Of a DNA stretch of 32,204 nucleotides, positions 1 to 32,204 are shown in pieces. Under the pieces are notes generated by a model. It had not been told where the DNA came from. It ran no database searches and saw only the letters and a list, made by a program, of their open reading frames with translations. Source of the DNA: a virus; the IMG/VR virus record IMGVR_UViG_3300025736_000106, positions 1 through 32,204 of that record. One strand, 5' to 3'. Both the position numbers and the translations under genes were made by a program. Position 1 is the first letter of the stretch. Every line of letters starts with the position of its first letter.

Positions 1-651
1 ATAAAGAAACCTCAAGGTCAGCACAATGTCGCTATCCTGCTGAGCAGTAAATGTGCTCGGGATCACCTGCTTAAGATTAAAGTAGAGATTCTTTGCGGCC
101 TCCAAAGCTGCCGTATCAAGCTCGATGCTGCTGTCGGTACCTGACAGCGGCGTCCCAGCCCAGGTGGCGGAGGCCGGAGCCTCGCCCGTGGTGGTAATGG
201 CATTCAGGGTTGAATCGGCGGGTGTTCCACCTCCTAGGAAGTCGCCGTTTGCGGCCGCGTGCGTATTATCGTTCCATGCCTCAAGCGTGGGTTTTCCGGC
301 AGTCACCCCGTCAAAATAGATCGCGAACACATACCGGGTAGCCCCGCCGCTTTGCCCTCCCGCGGTAGTGCCTGCGAGCGGCACCTGATCGAATATGCTC
401 TCCGAGTAGTCATCAATAAACGTCTTGGGCGCCTCAAGATCTCCCGAATCAGGGATCAGCACCGGGTACTTGGTGCCTGTCCGTGAATCTCCGTCCGTCT
501 GCTGGTCATCCAGAAACAGGATGGAGTCATTAGTCAGGTCTATCACCACCCAGTTTGAGCTGCTCCCCCCAGCCCCTCCAGAGGCATTCCCTGTGTTCGC
601 GCCATCGTTTTCCGTGTTGTTATAAAGCCAGTAAGTATTGGGTAAAGCCAT
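1..651 (-). CDS. Putative tail-tip or fibre-region protein, partial (3' end outside window)
   Basis: The frame starts at an ATG at 651 and stays open for 217 codons to the window edge, so the C-terminus is missing. The start overlaps the stop of the upstream gene as TGATG, a sign of translational coupling. The protein begins MALPNTYWLYNNTE and is rich in Gly, Ser, Thr, Asn and Asp, with a glycine-serine run near residues 26-33. That composition suits a beta-rich tail appendage. It follows the tail hub and a small zinc-type protein, where distal tail proteins are usually encoded. I recognise no family. The role is inferred from position and composition only. Confidence 0.6.
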   Translation of the reverse strand, partial: MALPNTYWLYNNTENDGANTGNASGGAGGSSSNWVVIDLTNDSILFLDDQQTDGDSRTGTKYPVLIPDSGDLEAPKTFIDDYSESIFDQVPLAGTTAGGQSGGATRYVFAIYFDGVTAGKPTLEAWNDNTHAAANGDFLGGGTPADSTLNAITTTGEAPASATWAGTPLSGTDSSIELDTAALEAAKNLYFNLKQVIPSTFTAQQDSDIVLTLRFLY

Positions 652-22305: not shown

Positions 22306-22613
22306 CAGTCAACCCTCTCAGATGTAAGTGCGTTTAGGCTGTATCGGTCATTCAGTATGACACCCTCGTCATAGAGTTTCTTTGCGCGATAGATGAGCTT
22401 TGCATATTTTTGTCTCTTAGCACTTGATTTGAGCGTAAGGCCTTTGAGCTTATCGGCTTTTTTCATGACCCTATTGGCCTGTCGAAACTTGTCTTTCAGA
22501 AGTAGTTTCGCGAGATCAGCCTCTTTGATCAGATTTGATCTCGCAATCGCCGTTAACAGCTTAACCAACACGGGTTTCGGCAGATCATTCAAAGTCAGTT
22601 TCTTGTCGCTCAT
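22305..22613 (-). CDS. Hypothetical basic helical protein
   Basis: The 102-residue Lys-rich protein (LPKPVLVKLLTAIARSNLIK, FRQANRVMKKADKLKGL, KYAKLIYRAKKLYDEGVIL) is almost entirely helical. It overlaps the PLA2-like gene by 4 nt (ATGA) and the next gene as TGATG. It sits where Mu carries its middle activator region, but lacks the Mor/C pattern I would expect. Function unknown. Confidence 0.7.
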   Translation of the reverse strand: MSDKKLTLNDLPKPVLVKLLTAIARSNLIKEADLAKLLLKDKFRQANRVMKKADKLKGLTLKSSAKRQKYAKLIYRAKKLYDEGVILNDRYSLNALTSERVD

Positions 22614-23026
22614 TTTGTAAAACTCGCAAATGCCCAGGAAAAAGACAGCCCGAAATCCTCGGTTCCCCCTACCCTTACAGCCGCATAAAACGCATCAGCG
22701 GCCCAACGTCTCATCCCGGCATCCACTATTAACCGCCCCCGGAACATTCTATCTGTCAGTTTTCTTTCAGTCTCGTTTCCCGGCTCACCGTATGCGTAGC
22801 AAAGATCGTGCGGCAGACAGCACTTGTACGTGATATCCTTCCAGTCGCACCCGGTGAAAAGCCCCATCAGCTCATCAGGCAGGCCGGAGCAGCCGTCGAA
22901 TTTCCATTCCTTGAACGCACCCGGATTATCTTTAATCCGAGTGACAAGGTCGTAAAGTCCGAAGTGCCGGCAAAGCTCAATCCCGCGCTCCGTCGTGATC
23001 ATGTCTCCTATCTCAGGCAGGTTCAT
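22610..23026 (-). CDS. Phospholipase A2-like protein
   Basis: The 138-residue protein contains FDGCSGLPDE (43-52) and KCCLPHDLCYAYG (68-80). The second fits the PLA2 histidine active-site signature C-C-x-x-H-D-x-C, with C69, C70, H73, D74 and C76. The first resembles the calcium-loop region. A later helix RRWAADAFYAAVRVGG could supply the catalytic Asp (D111). Known enzymes of this fold cut the sn-2 ester of phospholipids with Ca2+. No signal peptide is visible, so access to membrane would be from the cytoplasm or after lysis. The gene is embedded in an operon of small proteins with 4-nt overlaps at both ends. PLA2-like small phage proteins are known, but activity here is inferred. Confidence 0.7.
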   Translation of the reverse strand: MNLPEIGDMITTERGIELCRHFGLYDLVTRIKDNPGAFKEWKFDGCSGLPDELMGLFTGCDWKDITYKCCLPHDLCYAYGEPGNETERKLTDRMFRGRLIVDAGMRRWAADAFYAAVRVGGTEDFGLSFSWAFASFTK

Positions 23027-23538: not shown

Positions 23539-24249
23539 TCACGCGGTCAGTCTCGTCACCATTTCCTGAAGCTCGGCCGCCTTCTGCTGCATAGCGGTTA
23601 TCTGCTCTTTCGGCAGCAGCACGCCCCCGTATTTGCGCCCGATTTTTCTCAAACCATCTGCAAATTTTTCAGGCTCGCGCGTCATGCGCTCAAGAAATGC
23701 GTCCACCACTTCCACAGGAGCCGGCGCCTCGATCACTGCCGGCCGCACAGGACCTGCCGACAGGGTCTTATCCACAAGCTCCTCGAACTCAAAGGACAAC
23801 TGCGCCACCAGGTCCACCAGGGCAGCCTGCTTTCCGCGGCTGGCTTTTACGAGACCCGTCAGGCCCCGCTGCCGGAACTGTGAATAAAAGGCATCCACCT
23901 CCGCTTCCGTCTCGGCCATGTAATAACCGCCGCCCGTGCCCGCCTTTGACAGCACCGCGATCTGGTCGTGATCCTTAAGTATATGATTTTGAAGATGCCG
24001 CAATTCCCTCTTTGCCGCAGCCAGGTCATAGCGGCCCATCAGCGTGACAGTCTGTCGGCGCAGGAATTCCTTGACCCTCTGCCTTTCCACGTTGAACTGA
24101 TACATGGCCGCGAAATGGTCTGCCGGAAGGGCGTTTTTAGCCCCCACATGGCTCACCCACAGTATCCCCAGGAACCTGCTCTCAGTGGCTGTGAGCTGTT
24201 TGCTGTGATAACCGGTCTTTGTGTTAAACCCCAGGTCTGCTAGATGCAT
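23539..24249 (-). CDS. Early protein, winged-helix-like N-terminal half
   Basis: The 236-residue protein starts with SKQLTATESRFLGILWVSHVG and later has RELRHLQNHILKDHDQIAVL followed by GGGYYMAETEAEVDAF, a pattern common in phage winged-helix proteins where a GYY strand closes the wing. The C-terminal half is helical (SFEFEELVDKTL, AFLERMTREPEKFADGLRKI). The start at 24249 has AGGGGGG upstream and overlaps the GemA-like gene by 26 bp. Codons for EKFADGLRKI contain a 19-nt string that also occurs twice in an inverted repeat at 31990-32063. Function unknown, probably regulatory. Confidence 0.7.
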   Translation of the reverse strand: MHLADLGFNTKTGYHSKQLTATESRFLGILWVSHVGAKNALPADHFAAMYQFNVERQRVKEFLRRQTVTLMGRYDLAAAKRELRHLQNHILKDHDQIAVLSKAGTGGGYYMAETEAEVDAFYSQFRQRGLTGLVKASRGKQAALVDLVAQLSFEFEELVDKTLSAGPVRPAVIEAPAPVEVVDAFLERMTREPEKFADGLRKIGRKYGGVLLPKEQITAMQQKAAELQEMVTRLTA

Positions 24250-24673
24250 CGTAGGCCCCCCTGGTCTCGATTGACTTTATCGCCTCGATCACGTTGTGCG
24301 CCTTTTTAAAGGACAGAAAATTCTCATGATCCACCCGGAAACGCTTCTTTAAAAAGCCCCTCAAGGCCTTCCTCTCCTGGCCTTTCTTGTAGTAGGCAGC
24401 GCCCAGGCTCCACCACAGCGCGTATATCTTTTTTATCTGCTTATCGGTTGCCATGCCCGGCCTGTGTGCCTTGCCCGGCTCAGGCCCCAGGTTGCACTCA
24501 AAACCGCAGCCCTCGTAGTAGCGCATCACGGCGAGAAAGCCCTGATAGTCCAGGTGCTTTGACGAGCGGGCGCCGCCGATATCGGCCTGGATGTCCAGGC
24601 GCGTGTCGGCGTCTATGCCCAGCCGTTGGGGCGCGATATGCAAAAGCGCTTTCTGTTTACTTGTGAGCGCCAT
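24224..24673 (-). CDS. gemA: GemA-like regulatory protein (Mu gp16 family)
   Basis: The segment MATDKQIKKIYALWWSLGAAYYKKG and the start KQKALLHIAPQRLGIDADTR match the GemA/gp16 family (DUF1018). Mu GemA affects host gene expression and DNA supercoiling, and the gene lies in the early region after B, as here. The family's C-terminal helical block is seen as FLSFKKAHNVIEAIKSI. The 149-residue length is normal. Its start overlaps the small zinc-ribbon gene by 17 bp. Confidence 0.88.
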   Translation of the reverse strand: MALTSKQKALLHIAPQRLGIDADTRLDIQADIGGARSSKHLDYQGFLAVMRYYEGCGFECNLGPEPGKAHRPGMATDKQIKKIYALWWSLGAAYYKKGQERKALRGFLKKRFRVDHENFLSFKKAHNVIEAIKSIETRGAYDASSRPGV

Positions 24674-24833
24674 CTCCTGCTCCCAGGTTGGTTATAATCT
24701 GCCTGCCCGCGGGCGGCCCCAGCCACCTGTTTATCCATGCCCACGCGGGGCTTGCGCACTTCGGGCACTGAGTCAACTCACCGTCAAAGATCTCGTCACA
24801 ATCAAGACACACCTTGCTGGTTTTAAGTTTCAT
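24657..24833 (-). CDS. Small zinc-ribbon protein
   Basis: The ATG at 24833 follows AAGGAGG and gives a 58-residue protein MKLKTSKVCLDCDEIFDGEL, then CPKCASPAWAWINRWLG. The two CxxC pairs are 13 residues apart, forming a rubredoxin-like knuckle pair. A longer frame from 24896 has no such site. It overlaps the upstream winged-helix gene by 4 nt. Confidence 0.75.
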   Translation of the reverse strand: MKLKTSKVCLDCDEIFDGELTQCPKCASPAWAWINRWLGPPAGRQIITNLGAGDGAHK

Positions 24834-25312
24834 GACAGTCCTCCTTGAGTTCGCGTCACTCCTGCCGTCTTCCGTATCTCTTTCAATCTCTTGCACTTGG
24901 CAGTGTTTACGGGCGCGTCCGGCCCAGGGTCCTTGACCAGGCGCCAGTGGTATTTGTCAATTTTCCGCAAATACCCGAACCCCTTAAGACAATTGAGGTA
25001 TTCAAGTACGGTCGGCCTTGCGGCGCCTGATAGGCGCTCGATCTCAGCCGCCGTAAACGTCCGGTGGCTCCTTACCAGGTGCCACACCACCTCAAGCTTT
25101 GTGCGCTTCACCGTCAGGCCCCTGTATTTGTAAAGGCCGGTCGCGATCCGCTCGATCTCGCCGCGCTTTACAAAATCCCGAAGCATATTCTTGACTTGTT
25201 TCCTCTGGGAGTAGCGCTCAAGAGCTACGGCATTGGCAATCGCGGAAGGCGTAAACACGCCCATCGTCTTTGCCTCCTTGCGTATCTGAGCCGCCATATC
25301 ACCCCATGCCAT
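24830..25312 (-). CDS. Two-domain winged-helix protein
   Basis: Two DNA-binding-like units are visible: residues 20-65 (FTPSAIANAVALERYSQRKQ...LRDFVKRGEIERIATGLYKY) and 75-128 (VVWHLVRSHRTFTAAEIERLSG...CLKGFGYLRKI). Each has a winged-helix order with a recognition helix and a beta hairpin. The C-terminus is Lys/Arg-rich. It begins as TGATG on the MuB stop, so it is translated with the transposition genes and may regulate early transcription or aid replication. I do not recognise the exact family. Confidence 0.7.
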   Translation of the reverse strand: MAWGDMAAQIRKEAKTMGVFTPSAIANAVALERYSQRKQVKNMLRDFVKRGEIERIATGLYKYRGLTVKRTKLEVVWHLVRSHRTFTAAEIERLSGAARPTVLEYLNCLKGFGYLRKIDKYHWRLVKDPGPDAPVNTAKCKRLKEIRKTAGVTRTQGGLS

Positions 25313-26028
25313 CAGTTACCCCTTAAGCCCTGCGCCAGGGCGCGCTTTATTACATCATCGTTTGGATCATTATGGCCGCTTGCGATCATGATCTCTTTTA
25401 TCCGCCGGATATCGCGCACAACCAGCCGGAAATCGCCTTCCGCCGCCTCCTCGATCCTCTTTCCCTGGGCAGCTGAAAGCTTTAAACCTGCCGCTTCTTT
25501 GGCAAAATAGAGCACATCCACAGCAGATATCGGCCCGAAGCCGACAGCCTTTAGTGTCCGGCTCCAGATCCTGCGCTCGCGCTTCATCTTGTGCATGATG
25601 AGCTTTTCGCCCACGAGCGCCCACGGCACGCATGTAATGTCCGCAAGATCCCTTATCACCTCAAGCGCGCTCGCGCTCACCTTGTCCGCCTCATCGAGCA
25701 CGATCACCGTGTCCGGGTCATCCTCAAGCCGTGCCACAATCGCCTCAAAGCAGGGCTTCTTCCTTTTAGGTACAGGGTCAACCTTAAGCTCAAAGCACAA
25801 GTCCTGGAGCATCCACAGCTCGCTCCACAGTGTCTTTGCTCGGCAGTAGGTCCAGCCCTCCTGGGCTGAGAAAAACCGCGCGGCAGTCGTCTTACCCCTG
25901 CCTGCCTGGCCCCAGAACACAAGCAGCCTCGGCTCGCCTGCGGCCCTTTCAGCCTCTTTCATTGCGGTGATAAAGCTTTTTGCGTTCTGAGTTTGTACAA
26001 AGATATTTTTAAGCAGATTCCCGTTCAT
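25312..26028 (-). CDS. B: MuB-like transposition ATPase
   Basis: The 238-residue AAA ATPase has Walker A WGQAGRGKTT (GQAGRGKTT at 40-48) and Walker B VIVLDEAD (108-115). It has the compact AAA core of the MuB family (Mu B is 312 residues) but lacks a distinct N-terminal HTH. MuB proteins coat target DNA, pick the insertion site and stimulate the transposase. The ATG at 26028 has AGGAGG at ideal distance and overlaps the transposase stop (ATGA). The GTG at 26034 is too close to the Shine-Dalgarno sequence. Confidence 0.93.
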   Translation of the reverse strand: MNGNLLKNIFVQTQNAKSFITAMKEAERAAGEPRLLVFWGQAGRGKTTAARFFSAQEGWTYCRAKTLWSELWMLQDLCFELKVDPVPKRKKPCFEAIVARLEDDPDTVIVLDEADKVSASALEVIRDLADITCVPWALVGEKLIMHKMKRERRIWSRTLKAVGFGPISAVDVLYFAKEAAGLKLSAAQGKRIEEAAEGDFRLVVRDIRRIKEIMIASGHNDPNDDVIKRALAQGLRGN

Positions 26029-28109
26029 AGACACACCTCCTGCTCATCTGTTAGCCAGAGCTCGCGCAGAAACTCAAACCGGTCCGCAAGCTCCTTATAA
26101 AGTTCGGTAGATTCAAAATACCGCATGAATTTTTTCTGATCAGGCCCAAGCACCCCATCCTTTGACTCCCGCTCAAGATACGCCTCGTACCTGTCAGGCT
26201 CACTGTCAAAGCTCTCCACCGTCCTGGGCTTAAGCTCAAGCACCTTCATCTTCTCGGCCTGCCGCTCGATATGCTCTGCCTCACCCTGGGTGGTTGTCTG
26301 TTTTTCAGGCTCGGCCGGCCTGGCGGGTGCTTCCACCGCCCCGTATTTTTCATCTATCAGCCGCGGAGCGTTTTCCACCCACTCGCGCGCGGTCGACTCG
26401 GTTGACTTTTTAAGGGAGTTCTTCTGCACGATCCCCGCCTTAACAGCCGCAATGTCATCCTTGGTCCCGGTGATCCGGGCGATCGGATGCACGCCTTGAA
26501 CAGGCTGCGCCTGGCAGATCTGGCGGGTGCCGTCCTCTGTGTAGACAAAGACCTGGCTTAAGTCTTCGAGATCGTATTTCACGATCACCCGCTGCCTGAG
26601 TCCGTAAAGGGCCGAATCATAGTAGTGGCGGCCGAACATACTCACGCCGTTTCTGCCCACCACCTTGGCAGTGCTTGCCATCATAAGGTAGTTAAGCTCG
26701 GCCGCATCAACACCCGGCCCCTTGCCGGCTTCAAACACGTCAACAGGTGCCAGTCCCTTAAGGCCTCTGTGCGACCGGCCGGCATAAGCCTCGTACCACT
26801 CCTCTATTATCCGGCCCGCCTCTTCAATGGTAGGGGTCCAGTCGCCGTATCTTTTCTTATGTATGCGCTTGTGAAGCCTCTCCGACCTATGAAGGTGCGC
26901 GGGCTTGTTCGCAATCGATGTACCGCAATATGTAGGCATCAGCCGTTCAAGCTCGGAAAACGTCCCGAAAAACCGCTCGACCGGCTTGCTCTGCCCGTGA
27001 TACGGCCACGCAAAGATCGTCTCCATCCCGAGCCTGGCATAAAGGCCGTAAAAGCCCATCTCCTCAAAATCAATATCTTTACTGGTGAAAAATTTCGACT
27101 TGAACGCCCGTCCGTTATCCAGATACGCCACGCGCGGGACCTTCCCCAGGCGCAGGATAGCGGATCTTAGAGCGGCCGATATGCACTGGGTGTCCTCCGT
27201 GGCCATGATCTGCCGCGCAAGCGGCATGCGGCTTGCCCAGTCGTACCAGCAAAGGAGCGTCGGCCGGATCGGTTTGCCTGTGAAAGGGTGCAGCACGTTG
27301 AAATTTAAGATATGGCCGTCTGCGACCAGCACGTCACCCACTTCAAGGAGCGTTGAATCGCGCTCAAGATAGGGCAGCACCTTGTCGTTTAATGCTTTTT
27401 CTCCCTCGCGGGCAAACACCCACTGGTCGAAATTACTGTTCCCCCAGTCATCTAAGGCGCGCAAAAGCGTCGCCTCGCTGCTCGGAGAGGCCACCCCGTT
27501 TTTCTCTAGCTTGAGTTTCGCAAGACGCACCGCCTCGCTTTTCCTCAGCCTGTTCGGATGGAGCGCAAACTGGAGCACCGCCTGAACCTCTGCATCCGAT
27601 GTCTTGCGGCACCCCTTGCGGTTCCCGTATCTGGGGGCAAGCGCCGTATACTCAAAGCTCGCGTCTTTAAGCTGCTTTACCCAGCGCTCCACTGTCTTAA
27701 GAGAGGTAGCACCCAGCACTTCATACACGCGCGGAAACAAATTGCCCGTGTTATATCCTTTTATAAAGGTGCGGGCGGCCTTGCCTTTTTTGCCGTTTGC
27801 CTTTTCCTTGTGCCCGCTGAACTTCCTTACAAGCTCGGAGCGGGCAAGGGCGATGCTGTTCTGCTCCGCTGTTAGATCCGGGCACACGACCGTCACCCTA
27901 TCCTTATTATATAAGGATAGAGCGTCCCTCCCTTTTGAGAGAGATAAAGCCGCTTTCACATCTTCCGGCAGTGAATCCACGTCATAAAGCCTCGCCCGGT
28001 TAAATCCCACACTGTATCGCCACCCGGCGCTGTTTGCCCGGCTGACGACCGCCTGCTTTGACACACCCTGAGCAGACGCGATATCCTTTGCGCTCACCCG
28101 CTCAGACAT
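26025..28109 (-). CDS. A: MuA-like DDE transposase
   Basis: This 694-residue protein carries an N-terminal Mu-type HTH (residues 1-60, MSERVSAKDIASAQGVSKQA) and the core RNase H-like domain. The catalytic triad is readable: D264 in VLVADGHI, D331 in VAYLDNGRAF and E378 in SKPVERFFGTF. The following beta-barrel region (about 480-545) and a C-terminal helical part that contacts MuB complete the family plan (Mu A is 663 residues). It catalyses donor cutting and strand transfer for integration and replication. It is in operon with the ATPase gene. N-terminal residues 1-60 could bind internal enhancer/operator sites. Confidence 0.97.
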   Translation of the reverse strand: MSERVSAKDIASAQGVSKQAVVSRANSAGWRYSVGFNRARLYDVDSLPEDVKAALSLSKGRDALSLYNKDRVTVVCPDLTAEQNSIALARSELVRKFSGHKEKANGKKGKAARTFIKGYNTGNLFPRVYEVLGATSLKTVERWVKQLKDASFEYTALAPRYGNRKGCRKTSDAEVQAVLQFALHPNRLRKSEAVRLAKLKLEKNGVASPSSEATLLRALDDWGNSNFDQWVFAREGEKALNDKVLPYLERDSTLLEVGDVLVADGHILNFNVLHPFTGKPIRPTLLCWYDWASRMPLARQIMATEDTQCISAALRSAILRLGKVPRVAYLDNGRAFKSKFFTSKDIDFEEMGFYGLYARLGMETIFAWPYHGQSKPVERFFGTFSELERLMPTYCGTSIANKPAHLHRSERLHKRIHKKRYGDWTPTIEEAGRIIEEWYEAYAGRSHRGLKGLAPVDVFEAGKGPGVDAAELNYLMMASTAKVVGRNGVSMFGRHYYDSALYGLRQRVIVKYDLEDLSQVFVYTEDGTRQICQAQPVQGVHPIARITGTKDDIAAVKAGIVQKNSLKKSTESTAREWVENAPRLIDEKYGAVEAPARPAEPEKQTTTQGEAEHIERQAEKMKVLELKPRTVESFDSEPDRYEAYLERESKDGVLGPDQKKFMRYFESTELYKELADRFEFLRELWLTDEQEVCL

Positions 28110-30804: not shown

Positions 30805-31557
30805 TTATGCTATTAAAGCCGCCTTAAAAACTTCGGTTACACTTTTATTTTCCTGCTCTGCTATTAACTTTATTCCTTCCACTAAGCCGGCATTTAAGCG
30901 GGATGTGGATGTTCTATTTCCACCATCATCTTGTAACTTAATTTTTGGCAGATGATCGCATGATGTAATAATTTCATCCCCTGCAATAATCCAGTGGATA
31001 GGCGATGGTATGATCAAATGATCGATATTATATTCTTTTTGTAGATATTGCCAAAACTTTCCAGGCTTGAATATTTTTTTTACAATATGCTTTATTAATT
31101 TTCTTTTTAAGAATTCGGTATGTTGTTTTTTCGTTAATTTTAATAATGGCCGTAAAATGCCTTCCGGTAACCTAAAGGAGGTTTTCTTTGTTTCATCTTC
31201 ACCCCATCCAGTACAAATATTTAATATTTTAGCCATTCTCTTTAAATGCTTATGAGAGAGGTTTAATACCTTTTCTTTAGGAGAATAGTAAAGAAAATAA
31301 TATGCGGTATAGAGGATTGATTCAGAAACATTGGAAGGAATATTGTTTTCAGTGAAGCTGTTTATCTGATTGTCTTCAGCTTCAATAACCATAATAGGGT
31401 CCCAGACACCAAGTATATATCCGGGCGTAATCTCGGCACCGGCAATATAATCCTCGATCATTTTGGCAATAGCCCAATGCTCGTCGTTCGGGTTGCATAT
31501 TACAGGTTTATTATTATAATAGTTTTCGTGTGTACCCCAGAATATGGCTGTCTTCAT
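30805..31557 (-). CDS. Orphan protein with a ribbon-helix-helix-like C-terminus
   Basis: The 250-residue protein starts at 31557 (GGGAG upstream) with MKTAIFWGTHENYYNNKPVI. A 274-residue reading from 31629 is rejected because it runs through a promoter-like repeat. The N-terminal two thirds are not recognised; they contain a Tyr-rich helix (YTAYYFLYYS) and a very basic stretch (KRKLIKHIVKKIFKPGKFW). Residues 214-250 (NRTSTSRLNAGLVEGIKLIA then EQENKSVTEVFKAALIA) fit a ribbon-helix-helix fold. RHH domains bind DNA as dimers and often repress their own promoter. Five TGTATGGCAT-like repeats lie upstream. The gene is AT-rich, unlike the phage body, and is likely a recent acquisition. Confidence 0.7.
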   Translation of the reverse strand: MKTAIFWGTHENYYNNKPVICNPNDEHWAIAKMIEDYIAGAEITPGYILGVWDPIMVIEAEDNQINSFTENNIPSNVSESILYTAYYFLYYSPKEKVLNLSHKHLKRMAKILNICTGWGEDETKKTSFRLPEGILRPLLKLTKKQHTEFLKRKLIKHIVKKIFKPGKFWQYLQKEYNIDHLIIPSPIHWIIAGDEIITSCDHLPKIKLQDDGGNRTSTSRLNAGLVEGIKLIAEQENKSVTEVFKAALIA

Positions 31558-31582
31558 ATTTAGATCTCCCTTATTGCATATG

Positions 31583-31829
31583 TCATAATGCCATACACAA
31601 TAGTAAAGGTCAAAATATTTTAACCTCATACATTATTCATAACCGTGATAATGCGTTTTTTCCAGAAAGATACGCGCAGTTTTCTTAATATTATGCCATA
31701 CACTTTTTTGATGATATTATACTTTTGAAACGTTTTATCTTATTGATATTATTTACTATTCGGCTATGCCATACACTTTTTTTGAATATTTCCCTTTTTG
31801 TATGGCATAATGTTAAAAATTGTCATACA
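31583..31829. repeat. Five copies of a TGTATGGCAT-type motif
   Basis: On the minus strand TGTATGRCA begins at 31829 (TGTATGACA), 31775 (TGTATGGCA), 31702 (TGTATGGCA) and 31597 (TGTATGGCA). One inverted copy starts at 31799 on the plus strand. Three direct copies are preceded by AAAAAAG. The copy at 31597 is about 40 bp before the start of the RHH gene, and that copy is partly palindromic. The set could be operator sites for the RHH protein, transposase-binding sites at the prophage left end, or partition iterons. Mu ends also begin TGTA. Confidence 0.7.
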
Positions 31830-31989: not shown

Positions 31990-32063
31990 AAAATTTCTCA
32001 AACCATCTGCAATTTTTACCCAAAAATAGCCTTTTTCCAATTGCAGATGGTTTGAGAAATTTT
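31990..32063. repeat. Perfect 25-bp inverted repeat with a 24-nt spacer
   Basis: Arms at 31990-32014 and 32039-32063 are exact reverse complements. Each holds the 19-nt string TTTCTCAAACCATCTGCAA (or its complement), which also occurs at 23645-23663 inside a phage early gene. Short similar sequences (TTTTTACCCAAAA and TTTTAACCCAAAA) follow each arm. As RNA it would be a long hairpin. No T-tract follows, so it is not a simple terminator. Confidence 0.8.
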
Positions 32064-32140: not shown

Positions 32141-32204
32141 CCACCTCATACCATTTGTCTGTTGATAATGATAAGGTGGTATCAAGGGTCGGGAATGACT
32201 CTCC

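Follow-up and report, generated by a model that had tools for sequence, protein, structure and literature searches.

Putative MuA-type transposase end sites face each other in a hairpin and recur inside an early gene of a Mu-like phage

The transposase end sites of Mu-type phages are textbook knowledge and comprise, in Mu, L1-L3 of attL and R1-R3 of attR. A Mu matrix scan detected left sites at nt 6 and nt 151, and at the right end it picked up a single inverted site; L2 lies near nt 111. The same scan found no internal site in the Mu interior, where the best score was 12.5, compared with at least 20.5 at the five end sites detected. In MuA ChIP, signal is present only at the Mu ends (PMC2837660). 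Pseudomonas Mu-like phages of the PaMx73 group have three sites per end, one of them inverted (R1), and their left sites lie at 10, 93, and 124 bp (PMC4378225). In our matrix scan for internal sites, the end motifs of MP22 and PaMx73 were weak. Transposable prophages of Leptospira have TA-TA ends and 6-bp duplications (PMC8705779).

Two further features of Mu are relevant here. One is the enhancer (O1-O2), an internal cis site for the transposase that is nearer the left end and is bound by the MuA N-terminal domain (PMC3562280). It lies about 1 kb from L, overlaps repressor operators, and is unlike the end sites in sequence. The other is target (cis-) immunity, in which end-bound transposase of Mu, Tn7, or Tn3 protects nearby DNA, the ends themselves being what confers it. 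Early in transposition of Mu, cis-immunity is strongest within about 5 kb and has disappeared at about 7 kb (PMC7350765). Its mechanism, removal of MuB by end-bound transposase, leaves protection of the interior unexplained (PMC2837660, PMC7350765).

We analyzed a 32,204-nt virus record (the window, meaning the whole stretch of DNA) that carries a Mu-like phage. The transposase, ATPase, and gemA genes all read from the minus strand, which places the left (transposase) end on the high-coordinate side. The features are as follows.

26025-28109, minus strand: MuA-type transposase, the presumed site-binder (PF09299, phrog_310; 25% identity to MuA)
25312-26034, minus strand: MuB-type AAA+ ATPase (phrog_296, PF13401)
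24224-24673, minus strand: gemA
23539-24249, minus strand: early gene hosting the internal site (236 aa, phrog_2113)
23638-23667, core 23645-23661, minus strand: internal copy of the putative transposase site, in the early gene (AAATTTGCAGATGGTTTGAGAAAAATCGGG)
31994-32010, minus strand: left arm of the hairpin, putative end-binding site L3 of the transposase (nt 158-174 counted from the predicted terminus; 32.3 bits)
32043-32059, plus strand: right arm of the hairpin, putative L2-like transposase site in inverted orientation (nt 109-125 counted from the predicted terminus; 32.3 bits)
32142-32158, minus strand: L1, the terminal site, in degenerate form (ACAAATGGTATGAGGTG; nt 10-26 counted from the predicted terminus)
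32167: predicted left phage terminus, reading 5'-TATCAACAG along the minus strand (offset of 9 nt to the L1 motif, the same as in relatives)

Like Mu, this phage has MuA- and MuB-type genes and three putative left-end sites (nt 10, 109, and 158), while its relatives have an R1-R2 tandem with 22-bp spacing and, in G015, a 5-bp duplication. Mu tolerates one inverted site (R3), whereas the phage studied here has its inverted site among the left-end sites; three left-end sites with one site inverted also recall the PaMx73 group. Unlike Mu, the site sequence is unrelated, most of this group has TAT...ATA termini, and there is an extra internal end-type site. The TA rather than TG termini form a second class that is shared with the Leptospira prophages, which differ in their 6-bp duplications and for which the accessible text describes no internal sites. 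As a putative internal cis site nearer the left end, the extra copy resembles the Mu enhancer; unlike the enhancer, it has end-type sequence and lies 6.5-12 kb from the end in this group, and it does not qualify as an enhancer of that kind.

Our starting point was an earlier note on the hairpin and its match to the early gene. The hairpin arms (31990-32014 and 32039-32063) form a perfect inverted repeat, with the 25 of 25 pairs that the note reported and a 24-nt loop. The predicted RNA fold of the region is -35 kcal/mol (z = -7.4 relative to shuffles). As the note also observed, both arms contain TTTCTCAAACCATCTGCAA, which is identical to early-gene positions 23645-23663; when the loop is included, the match extends to 23 of 24 nt (31994-32017 against 23645-23668). 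With a scoring matrix built from end sites of other phages only, the early-gene copy scored 36.0 bits, as high as the best end sites, and each hairpin copy scored 32.3 bits, while the maximum in 60 shuffled windows was 16.9. The match of the early gene to the window's own end sites was equalled in 0 of 300 Markov-random regions. The match between hairpin and early gene is not due to chance.

The exact 19-mer is rare, occurring in nine stretches among 2.9 million viral contigs and three times in 257 Gb of prokaryote genomes. Each of the three genome matches belongs to a Mu-like element, either within a prophage gene or at a phage end, which is not the distribution of the generic host repeat that the note had named as grounds for discarding its reading. 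Five viral and two genome matches are in the same early gene of Mu-like phages, and the rest are in non-homologous places; one matching contig, L011, nearly duplicates the phage in the window. The word common to the hairpin, the early gene, and the ends of relatives is GCAGATGGTTTRAGAAA.

Searching whole records with up to three mismatches revealed copies at both ends of related phage contigs, pointing inward; this inverted arrangement is present in L005/G001 and L006/G002/G015. At left ends, the terminal site L1 lies nine bases inside the terminus, with further sites about 100-150 bp inward, while right ends carry R1-R2 as a tandem 22 nt apart, and L129 and L132 supply further right ends. In the G015 prophage, the left edge reads TTCAT/TGTTGACTG-GCAGG and the right edge CCATCTGC-AAAATTACA/TTCAT (slashes, phage-host junctions). 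Read from the sequence, this prophage has Mu-like TG...CA termini, a 5-bp duplication (TTCAT), and a motif that starts 9 nt inside. Elsewhere, TAT occupies the same offset: it supplies the very first bases of the L005 and L010 contigs (TATAGGGGG and TATAGTTGC), and L008, L013, L129, L132, and the window agree with a TAT terminus, while L020 shows no clear agreement. Transposases of groups 1 and 2, as seen for L005 and L010 against the window, are only about 24% identical, yet apparently use the same end motif. With the motif and the 9-nt offset in hand, sequence suffices to call the ends of such uncultured phages. Two other placements were seen. In L009, a 4.8-kb contig, a full-strength site (82-98, plus strand) lies directly upstream of the start codon of a gene that looks late structural, and the left-end region of L155 (83-470) contains TTTAGGGGGGCAGGTAAGTTGAGAAATTTGATATTGG three times, in both orientations.

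The window lacks a right phage end, and its left terminus is predicted from relatives: we set it at 32167 because the 9-nt L1 offset is seen in G015, L005, L010, L008, and L013. L1 of the window is degenerate (6 of 17 positions mismatched), and with the trailing GCGGGATnAGGCGGGA it aligns with L1 of G002, L143, L148, and G004. L3 is the counterpart of sites found 138-150 nt inside L1 in L005, L008, L013, and G015, and the order of L1, inverted site, and direct site recurs at similar distances in L008/G004 and L148. The hairpin would thus sit inside a Mu-like phage, within its left end (attL), and 32168-32204 would be flanking host DNA. We propose that the hairpin consists of two facing end-binding sites, L3 and the inverted L2-like site, for the phage's own MuA-type transposase. 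Its perfect pairing is then best explained as a side effect of placing two strong sites face to face.

The internal copy is found at a restricted place. It lies directly after gam in G002/G015, G006, and L143, 20 nt before gemA in L222, and after gemA in L147 and L148; except in weak or unclear cases, it always falls in the stretch that begins where gam ends and closes a short way past gemA. These positions are about 6.5-12 kb from the left end, that of the window being about 8.5 kb from L. For nine of the 14 phages with a defined left end, the internal match was reached in 0-3 of 300 Markov-random regions, and the match in L147 was weak (28 of 300). All confident internal sites in this comparison have the same direction as L1 and L3. 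The internal site of L192, whose transposase is 36% identical, is reversed, and in L151, L155, L156, and L180, whose transposases are more divergent, the 10 kb searched contained no internal site. A second, weaker internal site is present in L010 (position 12013, plus strand; 24.6 bits; GCAAATGGATTGAGATT), about 15 kb into the contig.

Where end motifs differ, the internal copy follows them. In L148 (transposase 43% identical), GCAGATAGTTGGAGAAA occurs twice at the left end and the identical word is internal; in L143, GCATTTA..TTTGAGA is common to the end and the internal site. In L144, the end carries GCATCTAATTTGAGAAA, and the early gene carries GCATCTACTTTGAGAAT at the same codons, altering its protein at the site from KFADGLRKIG to KFASTLRILR and matching the phage's own end. 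Since the motif is at both ends, covaries with the internal copy, and is arranged as known Mu biology leads one to expect, we infer that these sites are bound by transposase. From these comparisons, the shared word most likely serves the phage's MuA-type transposase as its end-binding site, which would make the shared protein-binding site, one of several options in the note, the right one. We hold it highly probable that the hairpin and the early-gene copy are both such putative sites, a judgement that concerns their identity and not any role in immunity.

Early-gene homologues with about 55% protein identity have the block AAATTTGCAGATGGTTTRAGAAAAATHGGG in common, and its silent positions are nearly frozen. 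Across seven genes, of which five are either the window's own or had come to light through the exact 19-mer, the ten site codons were identical in 184 of 210 pairwise comparisons, compared with 1050 of 2362 elsewhere. The site window has the highest same-codon identity in the early gene (0.88; median 0.45), and, among residues that are invariant in all seven genes, one codon is shared throughout in 7 of 10 site columns but in 5 of 57 others (Fisher p = 9e-5). A protein-level search, in which one of the two peptide patterns included KFADG, found eight contigs, and seven carry the site. Since silent positions are frozen at about 55% protein identity and the copy covaries with the ends, selection is required; on this comparative evidence, the internal copy is maintained as DNA in many related phages. 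Clearly, then, a DNA site can take precedence over the protein sequence that the surrounding gene encodes, here a gene of the early region that overlaps the 3' end of gemA. A conserved, covarying internal site of end type is a new part, for which we found no description in the open-access literature; the same literature yielded no description of an internal copy evolved for immunity in Mu, Tn7, or Tn3.

One phage carries the site alongside a different transposase. C63/G003 (L115:14814-15503, G014 C63) is Mu-like and has a group-1 site in its early gene; its transposase is very different, being phrog_310 by profile and only a distant relation of the others, among which its single BLAST match is to G147. 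The region that must contain its left end has no motif-like site, so the early-gene copy cannot serve its own ends. We searched for the left-end motif of C63/G147 itself without identifying one, and a search for further phages with the C63 transposase returned the same phage only. The G012 homologue of the C63 early gene, 82% identical in protein, is without the site, and therefore a short patch was gained or lost locally. The metagenome-assembled genome (MAG) with C63 also holds a prophage fragment, L016, that matches L008/G004, in which the motif is used at the left end.

What might the internal copy do? We tentatively propose that it is a putative docking site at which transposase would strip the MuB-like ATPase off nearby phage DNA, shielding the phage interior from self-insertion. 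Target immunity would then reach the interior 6.5-12 kb from the left end; as end-based immunity in Mu fades by about 7 kb, a docking site at this distance would extend it. We give this proposal somewhat less than even chances. Protection against rival phages would account for C63, while a single internal site leaves much of the interior far from any site, and restriction to the gam-gemA interval suits a regulatory or structural role equally. It is conceivable, if improbable, that the copy acts as an internal "self" tag conferring interior immunity and that C63/G003 gained protection by taking up the tag of rivals in the same MAG.

A structural role is also a candidate, though we regard it as rather unlikely. 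The internal site could be an accessory synapsis or looping site that pairs the phage ends or folds the domain, like a distant Mu enhancer or central gyrase site. Consistent with this, the confident internal sites share the L1/L3 direction in several unrelated gene contexts, self-insertions of phage Ab30 show domains interpreted as loops (PMC5977238), and Mu synapsis needs a third site (PMC3562280). However, the L192 site is reversed, C63 carries its copy alongside an unrelated end system, and Mu works without such an internal site. Being conserved and in step with the end motif, the internal site gives experiments a natural way into synapsis and the folding of the phage domain. Transposase bound at the internal site might instead regulate transcription at the early/middle boundary. 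Confinement of the site to the interval from the gam end to just beyond gemA, weak or unclear cases aside, fits such a role, but we think it doubtful: the site is within coding sequence in many phages, up- or downstream of gemA in others, and at no constant distance from a start codon.

The early-gene copy could also be a recombination fossil with no present function, a short tract swapped between co-resident Mu-like phages. The early genes of C63 and G012 differ sharply at the site patch despite their 82% protein identity, hosts are shared, and two site-bearing prophages occupy one MAG. Silent-site freezing across genes about 55% identical and covariation with the phage's own end motif in L144, L143, and L148 make this very unlikely.

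The note had also raised two other readings, in which the hairpin encodes a trans-acting antisense or superinfection-control RNA or is a host defence element directed at the early gene. Promoter-like sites around the hairpin were at the shuffled mean, with none particularly directed across it (sigma-70 consensus only); no intrinsic terminator flanks it, no Rfam family matches it, and BLAST of the element against phage records gave no match. Although each arm repeats part of the gene exactly and an RNA from it would be complementary to the gene's mRNA, these readings are extremely improbable: promoters and terminators are not above chance, the same word at many phage genome ends and at unrelated positions makes antisense aimed at the early gene an insufficient explanation, and the predicted terminus at 32167 lies outside the hairpin at the relatives' offset, which would make the hairpin phage rather than host DNA. 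A solitary CRISPR repeat, a site-specific recombination site, and a DNA-uptake-type repeat had also been considered and were dropped once the both-ends pattern appeared.

Three other features of the window were observed. Between 31580 and 31836, (AT)TATGCCATACACTTTTTT repeats occur at 31692 and 31765, in degenerate form at 31819, inverted at 31799, and partially near 31590; they are operator-like and lie directly upstream of an ORF at 30805-31629. On the minus strand, 24830-25312 encodes an early-operon protein with an AbiEi_4 antitoxin-type domain (PF13338), a homologue of which adjoins the MuB homologue in relatives. Also on the minus strand, in the phage middle region, 22610-23026 encodes a small protein in which a phospholipase A2-like CCxxHDxCY motif was recognized by eye.
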